The notes beneath the pieces were generated by a model. The model was not told where the DNA came from and ran no database searches. It saw only the letters and a list, made by a program, of their open reading frames with translations. A DNA stretch of 64,000 nucleotides from Thermoanaerobaculia bacterium (lineage in GTDB: Bacteria; Acidobacteriota; Thermoanaerobaculia; Multivoradales; JAIOJS01): the NCBI GenBank assembly GCA_030429235.1, contig JAUIDB010000019.1, positions 1-64,000 on the forward strand, given 5' to 3'. This document shows, piece by piece, positions 5,346 to 13,867 of this stretch. The position numbers and the translations under genes were made by a program. The stretch's first letter is position 1; the number at the start of each line of letters is the position of its first letter.

Positions 5346-6326
5346 TCAGATGGCGTACTGGTTGCCGCCCCGCCCCTTGGCACGGTAGAGCGACCGATCG
5401 GCTCGCTGGAGCAGCTGGTCCGGAGTCGGATTGCCGATCGGCAAGGCGATTCCGACGCTGACCGAGGTGTGCAACGGTCCCGCCGTCGTGGAGATCGGTG
5501 CGTGCAGCGAGGACACCAGCCGATGGGCCATCTCTTCGGCTCGTGCCGTCTCCTGGACCTCGGCCATGATCAGCGCGAACTCGTCTCCACCAAAACGCGC
5601 CAGCACGTCCACTTCGCGGACACACTTCGAGAAGCGGTCGGCAACGCCCTTCAGCAGATCATCACCGGCGGGATGGCCGTGCGCATCGTTGACCTGCTTC
5701 AGGTTGTCGATGTCCAACATCATCAGCGCAAACGACTTCTGGTGTCGTCGCCATTCGGCGAGAACCAGTTCCAGGCGTTCGCGGAAGACCAGGCGATTCG
5801 ACAGGCTGGTCAGCGAGTCGGTGCGGGCGAGGCGCTCCAGTTCGCGGCTGAGCTGCTTCTGTTCCGAAATGTCGCGGAGGATCGTCAGGAGTTCCTGAAT
5901 CGACCCGTCGGGGCCGTAGACGATGGAACTCGTGCCGACGACCGAGATGATCTCTCCGGTCCTCGTCTTGTGGTCCGCTTCGAAGTCCTTGACGAAACCG
6001 AACTCGCCCAGTTGCCGCACGTACTCTTCCCGATCTTCGGGATGAGCCCACAACGTCGTCTTGAGGTCCAGGGCCTGCATCGTCTCCTTGGAGGGATAGT
6101 CGTACAGGTCGAGACCCGCCTGATTGATGTCGATCAGGTCGCCGGTGGGCGTACTGACGATGATGACGTCCTTGGAACGCTCGAAGATCCGGCGGTACCG
6201 TCGGAGGTTTTCGTTGCGTTCCTCGGTGGCCGCTTGCGCTGCCTCGAGCGCAGCGTCCCGTTCACGGGTCAGTCTTTCGACTTCGAGCTGCAGCTCGGCC
6301 GACGATGGCACACCGGATTGGGACAT
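5346..6326 (-). CDS. PAS-GGDEF diguanylate cyclase
   Basis: A 326-residue cytosolic protein predicted to make c-di-GMP from two GTP. Residues 8-42 form a charged coiled coil. A PAS domain spans about 43-150 (YRRIFERSKDVIIVSTPTG). The GGDEF domain spans about 165-326. The active-site GGDEF motif is intact at 246-250. A product-inhibition I-site RxxD (REVD, 237-240) lies five residues upstream, the canonical spacing. There is no transmembrane segment, so the input signal is probably cytoplasmic. No EAL or HD-GYP gene is in the window. It is convergent with the CBS gene. Confidence 0.93.
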   Translation of the reverse strand: MSQSGVPSSAELQLEVERLTRERDAALEAAQAATEERNENLRRYRRIFERSKDVIIVSTPTGDLIDINQAGLDLYDYPSKETMQALDLKTTLWAHPEDREEYVRQLGEFGFVKDFEADHKTRTGEIISVVGTSSIVYGPDGSIQELLTILRDISEQKQLSRELERLARTDSLTSLSNRLVFRERLELVLAEWRRHQKSFALMMLDIDNLKQVNDAHGHPAGDDLLKGVADRFSKCVREVDVLARFGGDEFALIMAEVQETARAEEMAHRLVSSLHAPISTTAGPLHTSVSVGIALPIGNPTPDQLLQRADRSLYRAKGRGGNQYAI

Positions 6327-6429: not shown

Positions 6430-9400
6430 TCACCAGGCGCTGGTATCACCGGTTTCGAACCCGTCGGCAAATAGGCCGACGAAGGGGGGTGGGTCGCCGG
6501 CGGTCGAGCGATCGAGGCTGGAGAGGTACTCGACCAGGGCCGACCTCTCTTGAGTCGTTAGGCTGAGGGCCGTGCGGTGGGGCTGAGCGGTCAGGAGGAG
6601 GTCGGCGGTGGCCACCGTCAGGTCGTCGACACCGACATCCTGCCAACTCCCGGCGGCGATGAGCGTGACCTGCACCGTGTTGCTGGCGCCCGGGTTGAGC
6701 GGAACGTCGAAGAACCGCATCCGCTGCCACTCGAACTGTCCCCGCTCTTGGCTAAACACTCGGTCCTCGACGTCGGCACCGTTTACGGTCAGCCGCAGGG
6801 TGCCGGGAGTCGCCGGCCAGAAGCGGAGTTCGAGTTGGCTCGGCCCGCCGGCTCCACCGTCGATACCGGAGAGGGTGACCGAACCGCCTACATCGAGTTG
6901 GACCAGGGTACCGTGGGCGCTACTGTCCTGGTTGTAGGTCGGAAAACCCGGCAGCTGCGCGTCCCCGGCGAGCGTTCCGTCCTCCATCTGGTAGATCTCT
7001 CCACCGGCGGCCGAGAAGACCTCTTCCAGGCTCGCCGCCGAGCCGTCGTGGAGATAGGGAGCCCCATCGAAGACGCCCAACAGGGTCGGCGTGTCGATTC
7101 CCGTCAGCGGACCCCCGAGTCGCTGCCCCGAACTCGTGCGGAGGGTGCCGACGTCGTGCAATGTCTCGAGGCCCAGGGTGCTGTCGGTGAAACCGGTCAG
7201 AGGATGGTGGCAGGTACCGCAAGCCGCAGCTTCGAAGGCGAGCCGCCCCTGGTTGGCGGTCGTGGTCAGGGCTCCGTCCGTGGTGCGGAAGGGGCTCCGG
7301 CCCAGAGTCGCCTCGCCGAGGGATTCCAGGTAGGCGGCGAGGTCGTCCAGGGGCTGGCTCCTGCCCGCGTTCGGCGTACCGAGGGGAGGATTTGCCGTCT
7401 CTCCGTCGGGGAGAAATCCTCGACCGCCGAACTCCGCCTGGATGTCGTTGACGAAATCCTGGATCTCGTCGAAGTTGGCGGTCCAGTGCACGTTGCCCTG
7501 CGCCATCCCAGCTCGCCCGTTCAGGGCGGTACTGTTGCGGAGCCCCTCGCCCCGTTGAGTGAAGTCCCAGACCCGACCGTCGTGGCCGCCATCGAAGTGG
7601 CAACTGGCACACGAAATGTAGCCCTCGAAGCTCATCTCGTTCTGTCCATCGGTGGCGTTGCCGGCGAAGTAGAAGTGCGTCTTGCCCGCGAGGACGTCAG
7701 GTGCGAGCCGTTCCCCGGTGGTGGTCGGGCTGACGGTCGGGGTCACGGCGCGCGCGCCGCTGGCCAAGAAGTCACCGAGGGGGATCCCGGTGACCGAGCG
7801 CCCCAGGAAGTTCTTGATCCACAGCGTGTTCGTCGCTTCATCGAGCAGCAGCGCCTGGGGAGCCCCGCCCCCACTCTCGAAACGCCAGATCGAGCTGCGA
7901 CCGCCGCCATCGCGAATCGCCAGGTCGTCGAAGACCGCGATCGTGTCGTTGCCCTGAAGGGCCACGAAGACGTAGTCGCCGTGCGGTGAGAAGACAAGGG
8001 AAGAGGGTGAGTCCGAGTTGTCGACGTCGACGCGAGCCCGACCGGTACCCGCCTGTCCGACTCCCGGTTCCGTGGGGTTTCCAGGGTCGCTGAGGTCGAC
8101 TCGCCCCAAGACCGCGCGCACGGTCGAGTCCGGAGTCATCGGCAGGTTGAATTCGGTGTCCAAGCGGAAGAACAGGCCGCGGTTGGTGTCGGTCTTGATC
8201 GCGGTGTACCAGAGCCAGTCTTCCTGCGGGCTGAGCACGAGGCTGGAGACGTAGTTGGGAACGCCCGGGCCATCCGCTCCCCCGGAGTCTAGACCTCCGA
8301 AGCCGCGGTCACGGAGCAGGTCGACGGTTCGGGTGTGTGTCATCGATCCGGTATCGACCTCCCAGACTTCGCCGAAATGCTCGCCCGAAAGGAACCGGGC
8401 GACATAGGCTCGGGTACCGTCAGCGGTGACCGCGATCGCTCCTGGGAAGGGTCCCAGATCGACCGCGCCGGTGAGACTCCGGCTCGAGGTATCGAAACGC
8501 AGGAGTTGGCCGTCCCCCGAGAACGTAGAGTTCCTCCCCCTCGTCGACACGAAGGCTGAGGAACCGTGCACGACGACGGCCTGGGGGGCGACGCCGTAGC
8601 CGAGTTGGATGTCGCTCGCCAGACTCCCGCCGGGCGAGAGGACGATCAGGCGATCGGCGTCTCGCGTGGCGACCCAGGCGTGCCCGGTGCCGTCGAGACT
8701 GATCGATACCGGGTCCACGGTGTCGTCGAAGCCGAGCAGGGTGCGCAGATCGATCTCCTGGAGTAGCGCTCCGGTATCGGCATCGAGGCGAGTCACCGAG
8801 TCGTTGTCCGGGTTGACGGTCCAGAGGATCCGGTCGTTGCTGTCGAGGGCGATCTGTGAAGAGTGGAGCGGTCGGGGGCCGGTGATCGGCTCGGCGACGG
8901 TAAGGGTGCGCACGGTCGACACCACGGAGGAGCCACCGCCTGACTGGAGGTCGCGGACTTGCACCTTGATCGGATAGTGCCCCGGCTGGGAGTACGTGTG
9001 GTTCGTACTGGCGGCAGCGTGCCAGTCTCTCGGCGGTGAGCCGTCGCCAAAGCTGAACTTGTACTCGAGGGGGTCGCTGTCAGGGTCGCTCGCGCTGGCC
9101 GAGATGGCGACCGATTCCCCCGGCGCCACCGTCACGGGGGTGGTGTTCACCGCGTCGATGATCGGCGAGGCGTTGCCCCCCGACACACTGCCTCCCGTCG
9201 AGAAGGTGAAGGAGTAGCCCTCGATGCCGTTGTTGGCGGCGTCACGAATGCCGTCGGCGACGATGACGACTTCGTAGGTGGTATCGGGCTGTAGGTACTG
9301 CTTCGGCGTCACCGTCAGGATGCCGTCGTGAGAGAACGAGGTCCAGGCATCGACCGGCGAGCCGCCGAGGGGGCGAAGGATGACCGTCTCGCCGTTGATG

Positions 9401-10641
9401 ATGGTGTAGGACTCCAGGGTCTCCGCAATCACGAAACTGACCGGTGCGCCGAGCGGATAGTCGGTCTGTCCTGGACGGGGGATGTGGTAGCCGACGTACG
9501 GTGAGCGCGTGTCGGGGGTGGCTTGGTGGCACCAGACGCCGACGCCGTCGCGGCCCGCGAAGCTGTACGACCCGCTGACCAGCAGGTTGCCGATCGGCAT
9601 CGTGTATTGACTGACGTCGAGGGCTCCGGCCACGCTCCCTGGGGGACGATTGTCTCCGACCTCGTCGAGCTCGAGCTCGAAGGAGAGGCTCTCCATGTTG
9701 ATCTTCTGGCGACGCGCGAACACGTACTCGTCCTGGATCTGGACGTAGGGCACGTTGGTCCCCGCGTCGAGGTCCGGATCTCCCGACAGGTCCATGGTGG
9801 TGACCAGTTGCAGATCGGTGGGGTCGCTGTAGTCGAGCACGTACATGATGCGGCGGTCTTCGCCACCGGTCAGGACCAGGTAGTTCTCCCAGACCATGCC
9901 GAGGTAGGCACCGACCGAGCCGGTGAACTTGTCCAGCAAGATCGGGTCGCCCGGTGGGTCGTCGAAGGTCGGACCGATGTCGTAGACGACGACACCCAGC
10001 ATCGAGGCGTCGGAGACGATGAACAGCAGGTTGCCGAGCAGGATCGAGTTGCCGGCGATTCCGTGTTCGGCCAGGGGCTCCCATTCGGCCAGGAACTCGT
10101 CGGCACGGTAGAGACGCGCCGAGGCTGGCGTGGGACCGTACTGGAGCCAGTTGAACGGAACGGCCCAGGGGTAGTAGAGCCGGTGCAGGCCACTGTCGGT
10201 CGGAGGCTGTTGGTCGAGGAGGAAACGGTCCGCCGCCGGCATCTGCTCCCTGGTGTTGACGCCGGGTGATACCCGACGGATCTCGTATTCTCCGCCTCCG
10301 GCCCAGTCTCCCGCCTTGCCGTGTCCATGTGTTCCCTGATCGGTGAGCACCGGGAGACCGGTGGTGTTGACGATGGCCAACGAGGCGGGGTTGCTGGGGT
10401 CGGTGAAGAGCCACTCGCGAGGCGATCCGCCTCCGACGTTGCTCGAGTAGATGCGTCCATTGTGGTAGATGATGTTGGCGACTCGGCCGAGGTCGACCTG
10501 CCGGTAGAGCAGTTGCCCGGGGGTGCAGGATAGATCGGTCGGAAAACCAGGCACGACCGGCGGGACGCCACCGGCCAGGGGCCAGCTCGAGGCAAGGCAC
10601 AGCGCGAGGAGCGCGAGGGTCAAGGTGAGGCGTCGGTGCAT
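6430..10641 (-). CDS. Large secreted di-haem/PKD/beta-propeller protein under riboswitch control
   Basis: A 1403-residue exported protein. I chose the ATG at 10641, preceded by GAGGAAAT, which begins a clear signal peptide (MHRRLTLTLALLALCLASS). In order it has an LVIVD-like propeller (about 40-360), an Ig-like domain (about 370-480), a PKD domain (about 485-580), a YVTN-type beta-propeller (about 590-950), then two c-type haem sites, CASCH near residue 1011 and CGTCH near 1142, in a region like di-haem cytochrome c peroxidase/MauG proteins. A carbohydrate-binding-like beta-sandwich (about 1235-1340) is inserted before the end. It finishes with LFADGFETGDTSAW, a recurrent C-terminal tag in this kind of bacterium. 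A surface or extracellular redox or adhesive role is likely, but no substrate is visible. Confidence 0.85.
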   Translation of the reverse strand: MHRRLTLTLALLALCLASSWPLAGGVPPVVPGFPTDLSCTPGQLLYRQVDLGRVANIIYHNGRIYSSNVGGGSPREWLFTDPSNPASLAIVNTTGLPVLTDQGTHGHGKAGDWAGGGEYEIRRVSPGVNTREQMPAADRFLLDQQPPTDSGLHRLYYPWAVPFNWLQYGPTPASARLYRADEFLAEWEPLAEHGIAGNSILLGNLLFIVSDASMLGVVVYDIGPTFDDPPGDPILLDKFTGSVGAYLGMVWENYLVLTGGEDRRIMYVLDYSDPTDLQLVTTMDLSGDPDLDAGTNVPYVQIQDEYVFARRQKINMESLSFELELDEVGDNRPPGSVAGALDVSQYTMPIGNLLVSGSYSFAGRDGVGVWCHQATPDTRSPYVGYHIPRPGQTDYPLGAPVSFVIAETLESYTIINGETVILRPLGGSPVDAWTSFSHDGILTVTPKQYLQPDTTYEVVIVADGIRDAANNGIEGYSFTFSTGGSVSGGNASPIIDAVNTTPVTVAPGESVAISASASDPDSDPLEYKFSFGDGSPPRDWHAAASTNHTYSQPGHYPIKVQVRDLQSGGGSSVVSTVRTLTVAEPITGPRPLHSSQIALDSNDRILWTVNPDNDSVTRLDADTGALLQEIDLRTLLGFDDTVDPVSISLDGTGHAWVATRDADRLIVLSPGGSLASDIQLGYGVAPQAVVVHGSSAFVSTRGRNSTFSGDGQLLRFDTSSRSLTGAVDLGPFPGAIAVTADGTRAYVARFLSGEHFGEVWEVDTGSMTHTRTVDLLRDRGFGGLDSGGADGPGVPNYVSSLVLSPQEDWLWYTAIKTDTNRGLFFRLDTEFNLPMTPDSTVRAVLGRVDLSDPGNPTEPGVGQAGTGRARVDVDNSDSPSSLVFSPHGDYVFVALQGNDTIAVFDDLAIRDGGGRSSIWRFESGGGAPQALLLDEATNTLWIKNFLGRSVTGIPLGDFLASGARAVTPTVSPTTTGERLAPDVLAGKTHFYFAGNATDGQNEMSFEGYISCASCHFDGGHDGRVWDFTQRGEGLRNSTALNGRAGMAQGNVHWTANFDEIQDFVNDIQAEFGGRGFLPDGETANPPLGTPNAGRSQPLDDLAAYLESLGEATLGRSPFRTTDGALTTTANQGRLAFEAAACGTCHHPLTGFTDSTLGLETLHDVGTLRTSSGQRLGGPLTGIDTPTLLGVFDGAPYLHDGSAASLEEVFSAAGGEIYQMEDGTLAGDAQLPGFPTYNQDSSAHGTLVQLDVGGSVTLSGIDGGAGGPSQLELRFWPATPGTLRLTVNGADVEDRVFSQERGQFEWQRMRFFDVPLNPGASNTVQVTLIAAGSWQDVGVDDLTVATADLLLTAQPHRTALSLTTQERSALVEYLSSLDRSTAGDPPPFVGLFADGFETGDTSAW

Positions 10642-10668
10642 GGGATTTCCTCGAAGGGTCGGTAGATC

Positions 10669-10685
10669 GCCACGGCGAACGTGGC
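10669..10685 (-). promoter_or_regulatory. Candidate expression-platform hairpin of the riboswitch
   Basis: GCCACG and CGTGGC form a 6-bp stem with a 5-nt loop, 28 nt upstream of the ATG at 10641. The base of this stem (10683-10685) is also part of the 3' strand of aptamer stem P1 (10683-10688). P1 and this hairpin therefore compete, as expected for a switching element. No T-run follows, so control could be translational or involve a factor. Confidence 0.55.
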
Positions 10686-10811
10686 TGCTCACCCCGGCTA
10701 CCAGAACGGGCCGCCGTTCGGTTGCGATGGGAAGGCTGACGGCCCGGCGAACTCCTGATCGAGGCCCGTGGCTTTGCGTCTCGCAGTCACCTGCGGTTTG
10801 CCCTGGCAGCC
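10683..10811 (-). ncRNA. Cyclic di-GMP-I (GEMM-I) riboswitch aptamer
   Basis: On the minus strand the leader carries the GEMM-I core in order. P1 is GGCTGC (10806-10811) pairing with GCAGCC (10683-10688). AGGGCAAACC lies at 10795-10804. P2 is CGCAG/CTGCG closed by the GNRA tetraloop GTGA at 10782-10795. ACGCAAAGCC lies at 10770-10779. P3 has ACGGGCC at its base pairing with GGCCCGT. The last conserved block, GGTAGCcGGGGT, is at 10691-10702, with one extra C against the consensus I recall. The ligand-contacting purine in AGGGC is G, as in c-di-GMP riboswitches, not the A of the cGAMP-responsive variant. P3 is longer than usual. It controls the gene at 10641 and follows a diguanylate cyclase gene. 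Confidence 0.85.
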
Positions 10812-10832
10812 AAGTTGCTGTTCTCTGCCGTT

Positions 10833-10838
10833 CTTATA
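10833..10838 (-). promoter_or_regulatory. Possible -10 element of the riboswitch transcript
   Basis: TATAAG on the minus strand lies about 20 nt upstream of aptamer stem P1, at a suitable distance to start the leader RNA. No convincing -35 was found at 17 nt, so the promoter call is tentative. Confidence 0.35.
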
Positions 10839-10915
10839 GCGGTGGTTTGGGGATCGATCTATGGACTGCTTCACAAACCCCTGAGCTACCCTCGGCGGGA
10901 GGGGCGTTCGCCGGG

Positions 10916-13867
10916 CTAGCCAACCACGCGATTGCGACCTTGCCGCTTGGCTCGGTACAGGGCCTGATCCGCCGCTTCCACCAGGGTGGCCTGGCCTTCG
11001 TGCGCACCGCCGTCGGGAACGATCGAAGCGAGACCGACCGAGACCGTCACCACGCTCCCTACTGGTGATTCGGGATGGGGTATGGCGCGGGCCTGGACCT
11101 CGACTCGGATTCTCTCGGCGAGGTGGCGGGCATCCTCGCGCGCCGTCTCCGGGAGCAAAACAGCAAACTCCTCTCCGCCGTACCGAGCGACCACGTCGGC
11201 CGACCGTTGGGAGACCGCCCGCAGCACTTCGGCCAGATCCCGCAGGCAGCTGTCGCCCGCTGGGTGTCCCTGGCTGTCGTTGTACGCCTTGAACTCGTCG
11301 ACGTCGACCATCAGCAGACTGAGGGGGTGACGATGACGTGTGGCCCGGCGCCATTCGGTAGCCAAGGCACTCTCGAGGCGCCTGCGGTTGGCAAGGCCGG
11401 TCAAGGGATCCCGGGTCGAGAGGTGAGCGAGTTGTTGGTTGCGGCGTTCGAGTTCGTCGTTCGCCAGTCGGAGCGCCTCCGTCCGTTCGGCCACCATCGC
11501 CGCGAGCTCGGCCTCGCGGCGCCGCAACTCGCGTAGGCGCAAGCGATAGAAGAGAGTGAAGGCGGTGACGAGCAGCAAGATCGCCAGGGTCTTGGCTTCC
11601 AGCCGTTGGTACCACCTGGCGGGAACCGAGACGGCCAGGATCGACGGCTTGCCCCAGGATCGTCCATCGCGCGTCGCGGCGAGTTCGAGTTCGTAGCCGC
11701 CCGGGGGCAGGTTGGTGAACGTGATCTGTCGCTCGGTTCCGACGATCTGCCAGGCCTCTTCGAAGCCGATCAGCCGGTAGCGAAGTTGGACTCGTTGGGC
11801 TGAGACGGCCGTAGGCGCGCCGGCGGTCACGACGACGCGACGCCCCTGGGGCGGCAACTCTAGCTGCGGTCCCAAAGGCAGGCGCCGCCCATCTACCGTA
11901 ACCTTGGTCACAAAGACCTCGGGAGGCGCGGGATCGAAGGCGGCGGCCTCGGGCTCCTCCACGATCGCCACACCGCGGGAGGTGGCAAACGCCAAACCGC
12001 CCGACGGGGTCAGGGTTCCAGCGTTGATGGAGCCGCCGACGCATTCGGGATCGATCAACCCTTCCGATGGTCCGTAGCGAGCGGCGTTCAAACGGCTGCT
12101 CCGGCCCTCGGCGACCGCCGTGAGCTCTTCCGTGGCGACACGACTCACCCCGTAGTTCGAACTGAGCCATAGGTGGCCGTTGGTGTCCGGCAGAATCGCC
12201 CAGACCGTGTTCGACGGGAGGCCGGACGTTTCGTCGATGGCAACGAACCGGTCGTGGAGGAACCGAACGAGACCGGCGTTCACAGTGCCCAGCCACAGGG
12301 CTCCCTCGGGATCTTCGTGGAGCGCCGTCACCAGGAGATCGGGGAGTCCGCTATCGAGCCCGTACAGGGTGGCTTCACCCTCAGCGTCGATCTGCACCAG
12401 CCCGTCTCGGCCGCCGATCCACACGCCCCCAGCGCTGCGGTTGACGAACGTGTAGACCCCACTCAGTCTCGGCCCGTGCCCCTCTCCCCAGGTCTGCCAA
12501 CCCTCGCCACAGCTTCGGTGCACACCGCTCTGGGTCATGCCGATCCAAAGGCAGCCTTCGGAGTCCTCGAAGAGCGCGGTGACCCTTGCCTGATCGGCGG
12601 GCGTAGGAACGGGACGCCATCGGTCGCGATCCCAACGCTGAACTCCGGTGCGAGAGCCGCCCCAGAGAGACCCGTCGCTTCGCACCAGCAGGCTGCGAAC
12701 CTGTTGATCGGCTTCGGTAGGGTCGGAGAGGCGCTCGAGTCCGAAACCATCGAAGCGAAACAGGCCGCCACCGTCGGTCGCCACGAACAGCTCGTCGGGG
12801 CCGGCGGTGACTCCGACCACGGTGTCCGGCGTCATTCCATGGCGTCGATCGTAGACCGAGAACAGGGAGTCATCGATGCGCACGAGGCCGGCGAAGGTCC
12901 CGGCCCAGAGGAACCCCTCGCGATCGAAGAGGAGAGACAACACGCGATCGTTGGAGAGTCCGTTGGCGACCGACAGCTGTTCGATGGTCTCGGCATGCCA
13001 GCGAAAGAGCCCGGCGCCGCCGGTGCCGATCCACAGTGCTCCCTGGTCGTCGAAGGCCAGGGCCATGATTCTCCCGGCGGCGTCGAGTTCGACCTCGGCC
13101 ACGAAAGTGCCGTCAACGAGCCGACCCACGCGCGAGCTGGACGTACCGAGCCAGACGACTCCATCGGGTGCCAGAGCGAGGGTCTCGGGTAGCTCGGTGG
13201 GCTCGAGGCCGAGCGAGAGCGTCTCGAACCCATGAGGGCCACCGACGGCCAGGCGGTTGCCAACGATGGCCCAGAGGCGCTCGCCGAGACCCGGGACACG
13301 GCTCACGAGCAGATCACCGGTCCATGGGTCGAGGACTCCGCTCTCCCGTCCGAAACAGGTCAGAGAGCTGTCAGCCCAGCGGCAGAGTCCCCCCCGCAAG
13401 CTGATCCAGAGACTGCCGTCGGCGGATGGGGCGAGGTCGACGACTTCGGGATTGGGCAGAGCAGACGCAGGGATGGCTTCGACGATGCGTCCCTCTTGCA
13501 AGCGGAAGACGCCGCCTCCCGCCGTACCGATCCAGAGTGAGCCGTCGGCGGCGATGGCCAGCGTCCCCACGTTGTCGCTGGTGAGACCGGGCAGCGTCCG
13601 CCGGTTCATCCACTCGAAGTGGCTGCCATCGAAACGCGAGAAACCTTCGGCGGAGCCAAACCAGAGGAAGCCCCTCGGGTCCTGGACGATCTCCGGGACG
13701 TAGTTGAGTGGCAGCCCATCCCGGGTAGTGAAGGTCTGTAGTGAGTAGGCCGCCAGAGGACGTAGCGAGGTCGGTGCTTCGGGCGGGACGACCGGTTTAG
13801 CGGGCCCAGCGGTGGCGAAGAGAAGTACCAAGCAGCCTGCGATACCGCTCCTCAAGACCCTGATCAC
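10916..13867 (-). CDS. Membrane diguanylate cyclase with periplasmic Reg_prop/Y_Y_Y sensor
   Basis: A 983-residue protein. A signal or anchor segment is at 1-22. Residues about 40-640 hold many two-component-regulator-propeller repeats (DPRGFLWFGSAEGFSRFDG; ADGSLWIGTAGGGVFRL), predicted to form a large periplasmic ligand-binding propeller pair. A Y_Y_Y-type beta-sandwich follows at about 670-755. One membrane helix is near 760-782 and a coiled coil runs to about 825. The GGDEF domain has an active GGEEF at 897-901 and an I-site RSAD at 888-891. The architecture matches hybrid sensors of glycan utilisation but with a cyclase output instead of a kinase. The GTG at 13867 is the likely start. The next transcription unit on this strand begins with a c-di-GMP riboswitch. 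Confidence 0.92.
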   Translation of the reverse strand: MIRVLRSGIAGCLVLLFATAGPAKPVVPPEAPTSLRPLAAYSLQTFTTRDGLPLNYVPEIVQDPRGFLWFGSAEGFSRFDGSHFEWMNRRTLPGLTSDNVGTLAIAADGSLWIGTAGGGVFRLQEGRIVEAIPASALPNPEVVDLAPSADGSLWISLRGGLCRWADSSLTCFGRESGVLDPWTGDLLVSRVPGLGERLWAIVGNRLAVGGPHGFETLSLGLEPTELPETLALAPDGVVWLGTSSSRVGRLVDGTFVAEVELDAAGRIMALAFDDQGALWIGTGGAGLFRWHAETIEQLSVANGLSNDRVLSLLFDREGFLWAGTFAGLVRIDDSLFSVYDRRHGMTPDTVVGVTAGPDELFVATDGGGLFRFDGFGLERLSDPTEADQQVRSLLVRSDGSLWGGSRTGVQRWDRDRWRPVPTPADQARVTALFEDSEGCLWIGMTQSGVHRSCGEGWQTWGEGHGPRLSGVYTFVNRSAGGVWIGGRDGLVQIDAEGEATLYGLDSGLPDLLVTALHEDPEGALWLGTVNAGLVRFLHDRFVAIDETSGLPSNTVWAILPDTNGHLWLSSNYGVSRVATEELTAVAEGRSSRLNAARYGPSEGLIDPECVGGSINAGTLTPSGGLAFATSRGVAIVEEPEAAAFDPAPPEVFVTKVTVDGRRLPLGPQLELPPQGRRVVVTAGAPTAVSAQRVQLRYRLIGFEEAWQIVGTERQITFTNLPPGGYELELAATRDGRSWGKPSILAVSVPARWYQRLEAKTLAILLLVTAFTLFYRLRLRELRRREAELAAMVAERTEALRLANDELERRNQQLAHLSTRDPLTGLANRRRLESALATEWRRATRHRHPLSLLMVDVDEFKAYNDSQGHPAGDSCLRDLAEVLRAVSQRSADVVARYGGEEFAVLLPETAREDARHLAERIRVEVQARAIPHPESPVGSVVTVSVGLASIVPDGGAHEGQATLVEAADQALYRAKRQGRNRVVG

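Follow-up and report, generated by a model that had tools for sequence, protein, structure and literature searches.

Does an RNA in the leader of a very large di-haem protein gene switch that gene, which cyclic dinucleotide does it read, and do the cyclases encoded beside it supply the ligand? These questions arise at a locus in the genome of a Thermoanaerobaculia bacterium (genome G000; 4.85 Mb, 92 contigs), of which we analyzed a stretch of 64 kb (the window). A sequence-only reading of this DNA had proposed a one-locus circuit of a sensor cyclase, a complete GEMM-I core and a secreted di-haem protein. We scanned both strands of the window against 4227 Rfam families and obtained one match in total, a c-di-GMP-I (GEMM-I) riboswitch aptamer at positions 10735 to 10812 of the minus strand (RF01051; 41.3 bits, gathering score 35; E = 1.1e-4), which confirmed the proposed family assignment. 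The aptamer lies 3' of a gene for a Reg_prop-Y_Y_Y-GGDEF cyclase and 5' of the di-haem protein (effector) gene, which starts 93 nt further on. The genome contains no other c-di-GMP-I aptamer.

With the Vc2 RNA of Vibrio cholerae the window aptamer shares its above-gathering RF01051 score, the P1-P2-P3 three-way junction and a GNRA-capped P2 (here GUGA). The equivalents of G20 (position 10802, minus strand; G at model position 11) and A47 (position 10775, minus strand; the first A of GACGCAAAGC, after GACGC) are retained, as are the C44 and G83 partners. Unlike Vc2, it has U92 followed by CAG instead of CGA, and its P3, which the Rfam alignment shows shortened, has no evident tetraloop receptor. 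The 3' end reads GCCGUCAGC, in which U10739 (minus strand; model position 83) occupies the ligand contact C92. In published structures, C92 sits in J3/1 directly 5' of C93, which forms the top pair of P1 with G14 (PMC3764141). We assigned U10739 to position 92 because it lies directly 5' of C10738, which pairs with G10807 as the G14-C93 anchor. With a U at position 92, the core deviates from the complete standard form that had been described. C92 is highly conserved, yet it falls outside the Rfam membership rule, and we file the window aptamer as a U92 variant of RF01051. The earlier description was right about the GNRA-capped P2, but it had also counted GGTAGCCGGGGT (GGTAGC-GGGGT; positions 10690 to 10702, minus strand) as core. 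This stretch begins about 33 nt beyond the aptamer end. In an alignment of the G000 leader with that of an orthologue in genome G006, conservation runs from GCUG in P1 through GCCGUCAGC and stops there. As an alternative 3' half, GGTAGC-GGGGT could pair, but it is missing from the G006 leader and was rejected.

We extracted 96 aptamers of the order to compare positions 92 and 20. U92 occurred in six (G000, G006, G007:C23, G004:C25, G003:C826 and G001:C338), all of which kept G20; the remaining 90 had C92, and a few of these carried A20 or C20. A model built from the six U92 aptamers (R1) scored them at 84 to 96 bits, values that are high by construction; across 149 genomes of the class, no other sequence exceeded 56 bits. 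Across the six sequences, 96.4% of pair cells were standard. Two-sided changes affected three pairs, compared with none in slid controls; the sample of six is small, and this shuffle comparison does not amount to a probability. Compensatory changes accompany conservation of the aptamer in G006 and four other loci, and the covariation that the sequence-only reading had asked for in homologous leaders is present. The U92 aptamers of G003 and G004 precede a protein that lacks haem motifs and ends in a DGFESGN tail, and that of G007:C23 precedes a 760-aa protein with one CxxCH; no clear gene was found behind the aptamer of G001:C338. A collection-wide scan for the U92 pattern gave 32 places, and most of those outside the order (in Paenibacillus, Cohnella, Cellulomonas and Rubrivivax) were C92 aptamers with a later GTCA and were discarded. 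About eight further apparent U92 GEMM-I aptamers came from records of Clostridia, Negativicutes, Acholeplasmatales, KSB1 and Comamonadaceae (loci L137, L140, L141, L146, L148, L155, L157 and L163), so the U92 change also occurs elsewhere.

The effector gene (positions 6430 to 10641, minus strand) encodes a protein of 1403 residues that appears to be exported, its signal peptide having been read from the sequence rather than called by a predictor. The two CxxCH sites claimed for it are CASCH (residues 1011 to 1015; positions 7597 to 7611, minus strand) and CGTCH (residues 1141 to 1145; positions 7207 to 7221, minus strand), and Cys, Cys and His are invariant at both sites in 20 aligned homologues. 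An N-terminal propeller is followed by Big_5 (residues 377 to 482), PKD (490 to 572), a YVTN-type propeller (about 590 to 960), a di-haem CCP/MauG-like domain (about 990 to 1210), a sandwich domain and a DGFETGDTSAW tail. Two CxxCH sites, a CCP_MauG match over the Pfam cut-off (27.7 versus 25.6 bits) and an APYxHDGSAxxL motif are shared with the di-haem cytochrome c peroxidase/MauG/MbnH superfamily, of which the effector is a predicted member. It differs from these enzymes in its fusion to two propellers, Big_5, PKD and the C-terminal sandwich, and its peroxidase or MauG (TTQ-synthase) activity, like its redox role, is putative. Profile matches in the PDB were to an archaeal surface-layer propeller, hydrazine synthase beta and gamma and di-haem peroxidases, and for the second propeller Foldseek ranked hydrazine synthase beta (5c2v_B) highest. 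The AlphaFold2 models reached moderate to low confidence, with values under 50 for much of the haem domain, and no convincing structural match was found for the N-terminal model. Hydrazine synthase beta and gamma also combine propeller and di-haem domains, but the effector scored 39.8 and 39.3 bits against NCBIfam cut-offs of 625 and 1250, which suggests remote relatives only. The DGFE(S/T)GD...W tail is encoded at positions 6433 to 6465 and in 80 other places in G000 (81 in total; reversed-pattern control, 0), and it had no NCBIfam model match in the proteins scanned. It is likely an export or surface-sorting tail; as a mark of a riboswitch regulon it was ruled out by its 81 occurrences.

About 20 effector homologues were found, all within this order (16 of the 149 genomes of the class at E 1e-200), and only those in G000 and G006 carry the aptamer; a dedicated aptamer model found none at the others. 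In the G006 orthologue (75% identical), aptamer and effector are conserved together in an otherwise diverged leader. Because they are conserved as a pair, riboswitch and effector are an evolved unit, and control of the effector by the riboswitch, as first proposed, is well supported. No aptamer precedes a 72% identical orthologue in G007, and the region upstream of that gene (L062, about 10040 to 10470) contains many direct repeats of GTCTCGGAAACTACGTGGCACCTTC. G000 itself encodes a second effector paralogue (G000:C49:11691-15308; 47% identical), which ends at the contig end and has no riboswitch match. The absence of the aptamer in G007, together with U92, the short P3 without an evident tetraloop receptor and the low family score (41.3 bits, compared with 67 for the best of the order), would fit a decaying RNA that binds ligand weakly or not at all. 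We consider decay very unlikely, as G000 and G006 have both kept the core bases and helices, with compensatory changes, and aptamers with this U92 signature precede two further kinds of exported protein in other genomes.

How might the aptamer act on the gene? Upstream of the AUG at 10641, by 7 nt, lies a predicted Shine-Dalgarno (SD) region, UCGAGG (positions 10649 to 10654, minus strand). In the ligand-free folding ensemble it pairs with CCUCGA, the 5' strand of P3 and predicted anti-SD (positions 10759 to 10764, minus strand), with a probability of about 0.78, a value attained by 1 of 61 other gene starts swapped into the leader. Forcing the aptamer raised the probability of an unpaired SD from 0.07 to 0.28. 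This release was clear in G000 only. In the G007 leader the SD region partly pairs with the same P3 strand and is not released when the aptamer is forced. The SD of the G003 leader has the 3' strand of P1 as its partner, and in the G006 leader no pairing of SD with aptamer was found in the ensemble. A second predicted element of the expression platform is the anti-P3 segment GGCCCGU (positions 10706 to 10712, minus strand), a 7-nt complement of ACGGGCC in P3. Such a segment follows the aptamer by about 25 to 35 nt in four of the six U92 leaders (G000, G006, G007 and G001), and in the window leader it has changed in step with P3. A terminator scan found no terminator-like site in the window leader or between cyclase and aptamer, a sigma-70 promoter scan of the leader found none, and the minimum free energy of the whole leader was no better than that of shuffled sequences (z = 0.31). 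Translational control is favored because of the SD:P3 pairing, the anti-P3 segment and the lack of a terminator-like site; as a prediction from folding, the riboswitch would be ON with ligand. Overall, we lean toward a GEMM-I riboswitch with a U92 pocket that turns on translation of the exported two-propeller di-haem protein in response to a cyclic dinucleotide. Without ligand, CCUCGA in P3 would pair with the effector SD and shut the gene. A cyclic dinucleotide, most likely c-di-GMP from the general cell pool, would bind the aptamer, close P3 and free the ribosome site, and the effector would be made at high messenger level.

The source of the ligand was the central point of the earlier proposal. 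The sensor cyclase upstream (983 aa; positions 10916 to 13867, minus strand) matched Reg_prop (7e-44), Y_Y_Y (8e-11) and GGDEF (3e-49) in Pfam and has, by eye, one membrane span. It contains the motifs DVDEFKAYNDSQGHPAGD and RSADVVARYGGEEF, and the GGEEF and I-site attributed to it are intact: an RxxD I-site (RSAD) lies five residues before GGEEF, and FKxxND/GHxxGD is canonical. BT4663-type hybrid two-component sensors have a periplasmic Reg_prop propeller plus Y_Y_Y as their sensor part. The sensor cyclase shares this architecture but has a GGDEF domain as output in place of a kinase. We found a second cyclase gene, absent from the earlier description, directly downstream of the effector (326 aa; positions 5346 to 6326, minus strand; GGDEF 3e-46, PAS_9 1e-7), with canonical GHPAGD and an REVD I-site. 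Both proteins have GG(D/E)EF, an I-site and the GHxxGD and ND residues of a c-di-GMP-type substrate site, and judged by these residues they are real diguanylate cyclases.

In the proposed circuit, the adjacent propeller-cyclase would sense an extracellular ligand in the periplasm and its c-di-GMP would be read locally by the riboswitch, perhaps with the PAS-GGDEF protein as a second input. The arrangement itself speaks for it: the effector has a cyclase on either side, these three genes share their strand with the one GEMM-I aptamer of the genome, and the lack of a terminator-like site between cyclase and aptamer makes co-transcription possible. Two immediate GGDEF neighbors would arise by chance at about 4e-5, a post hoc figure from simple counting with 27 GGDEF domains and an assumed gene number of about 4,000. 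Comparison with relatives argues otherwise. Among the 96 aptamers of the order, only the window's own has a GGDEF gene within 5 kb (some flanks end at contig ends), and the gene order did not recur among them. The G006 orthologue keeps the aptamer with no GGDEF gene beside it, its upstream gene being divergent and not a cyclase and no cyclase lying downstream. Distant relatives of the sensor cyclase occur in two genomes only (41% and 38% identical), on contigs without the effector. There is also no need for a local nucleotide source, because G000 encodes 27 GGDEF and 6 EAL domains. The claim that the adjacent cyclase feeds the riboswitch thus found no backing in the comparison, and the combination of cyclase and riboswitch is a property of the window genome. 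A self-contained circuit is weakly supported, and we regard it as unlikely; a lineage-specific local circuit is possible, because two-sided flanking by cyclases is improbable by chance. Under the pool-fed riboswitch that we prefer, the two canonical cyclases may add to the pool, but they are not a conserved part of the system. In G004:C276 (L075:5045-6592), the only such case, a divergent GGDEF gene adjoins an effector homologue without the aptamer.

As a first guess from the sequence, c-di-GMP is the most likely ligand. Smith et al. are said to have found in 2010 that common natural variants still bind it. U92, however, removes the Watson-Crick contact to one guanine of the ligand. Because C92 is U, several cyclic dinucleotides are possible. 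The Vc2 double mutant G20A/C92U is reported to bind c-di-AMP and to have lost its affinity for c-di-GMP (4900 nM compared with 0.011 nM; PMC9049102). Another possible ligand is 3',3'-cGAMP, its A paired with U92 and its G read by G20. The U92/G20 RNAs would then form a separate GEMM-I specificity class for a mixed guanine-adenine cyclic dinucleotide, mirroring the solution in Geobacter and driving exported haem and surface proteins, with an order-wide Hypr-like GGDEF as the source rather than the neighboring cyclases. Serine replacing aspartate marks Hypr cyclases, which make cGAMP (PMC6456294). G000 has two GGDEF genes with GHxxGS instead of GHxxGD (C38:89213-89253 and C58:52792-52832), and 69 of the 72 genomes of the order have at least one GGDEF gene, usually one per genome, whose substrate-selectivity position has a codon class other than aspartate, mostly serine (serine in all ten loci read, L209-L218). 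The presence of U92 in all six members of the well separated R1 group also fits, as does the cGAMP-responsive GEMM-Ib before Geobacter cytochrome genes (PMC6456294). On the other hand, the natural cGAMP aptamers that are known carry a G20-to-A change rather than a C92-to-U change, and the window aptamer has G20 where GEMM-Ib has A; a Vc2 RNA with C92U alone was crystallized (3MUR; listed in PMC10671752). The Hypr-like gene occurs in genomes with and without U92 aptamers, so its presence alone does not point to the window riboswitch. We therefore rate a cGAMP-specific class as rather improbable and keep c-di-GMP as the first guess.

Riboswitch control of exported cytochromes is already known from Geobacter, where GEMM-Ib RNAs serve this role (PMC6456294). 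The Geobacter system of GEMM-Ib and the Hypr cyclase GacA resembles the window in having a GEMM-family RNA before exported c-type cytochrome genes, and the window genome is like Geobacter in its GHxxGS-type GGDEF genes. The window RNA differs in keeping G20, not A20, and the protein encoded behind it is a propeller protein with two haem sites instead of a multihaem cytochrome. The new parts are the variant pocket and this effector family; what was unexpected is that a lineage retaining Hypr-like cyclases also has the altered ligand pocket. The locus would place riboswitch-controlled exported haem proteins beyond Geobacter, in a deep Acidobacteriota lineage, and it draws attention to very large di-haem propeller proteins, a family whose role is unassigned. 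It also provides a natural lineage with a changed GEMM-I ligand-contact base, so ligand specificity is directly testable with one RNA and three nucleotides. Elsewhere in the order, GEMM-I RNAs mostly lie upstream of proteins with signal-peptide-like starts; haem proteins among their other targets are a di-haem protein (G023:C13) and the one-haem protein of G007:C23. Genomes of family f4 (G018-G033) carry up to 18 GEMM-I riboswitches each, and a few of these aptamers have A20, the cGAMP-type base.
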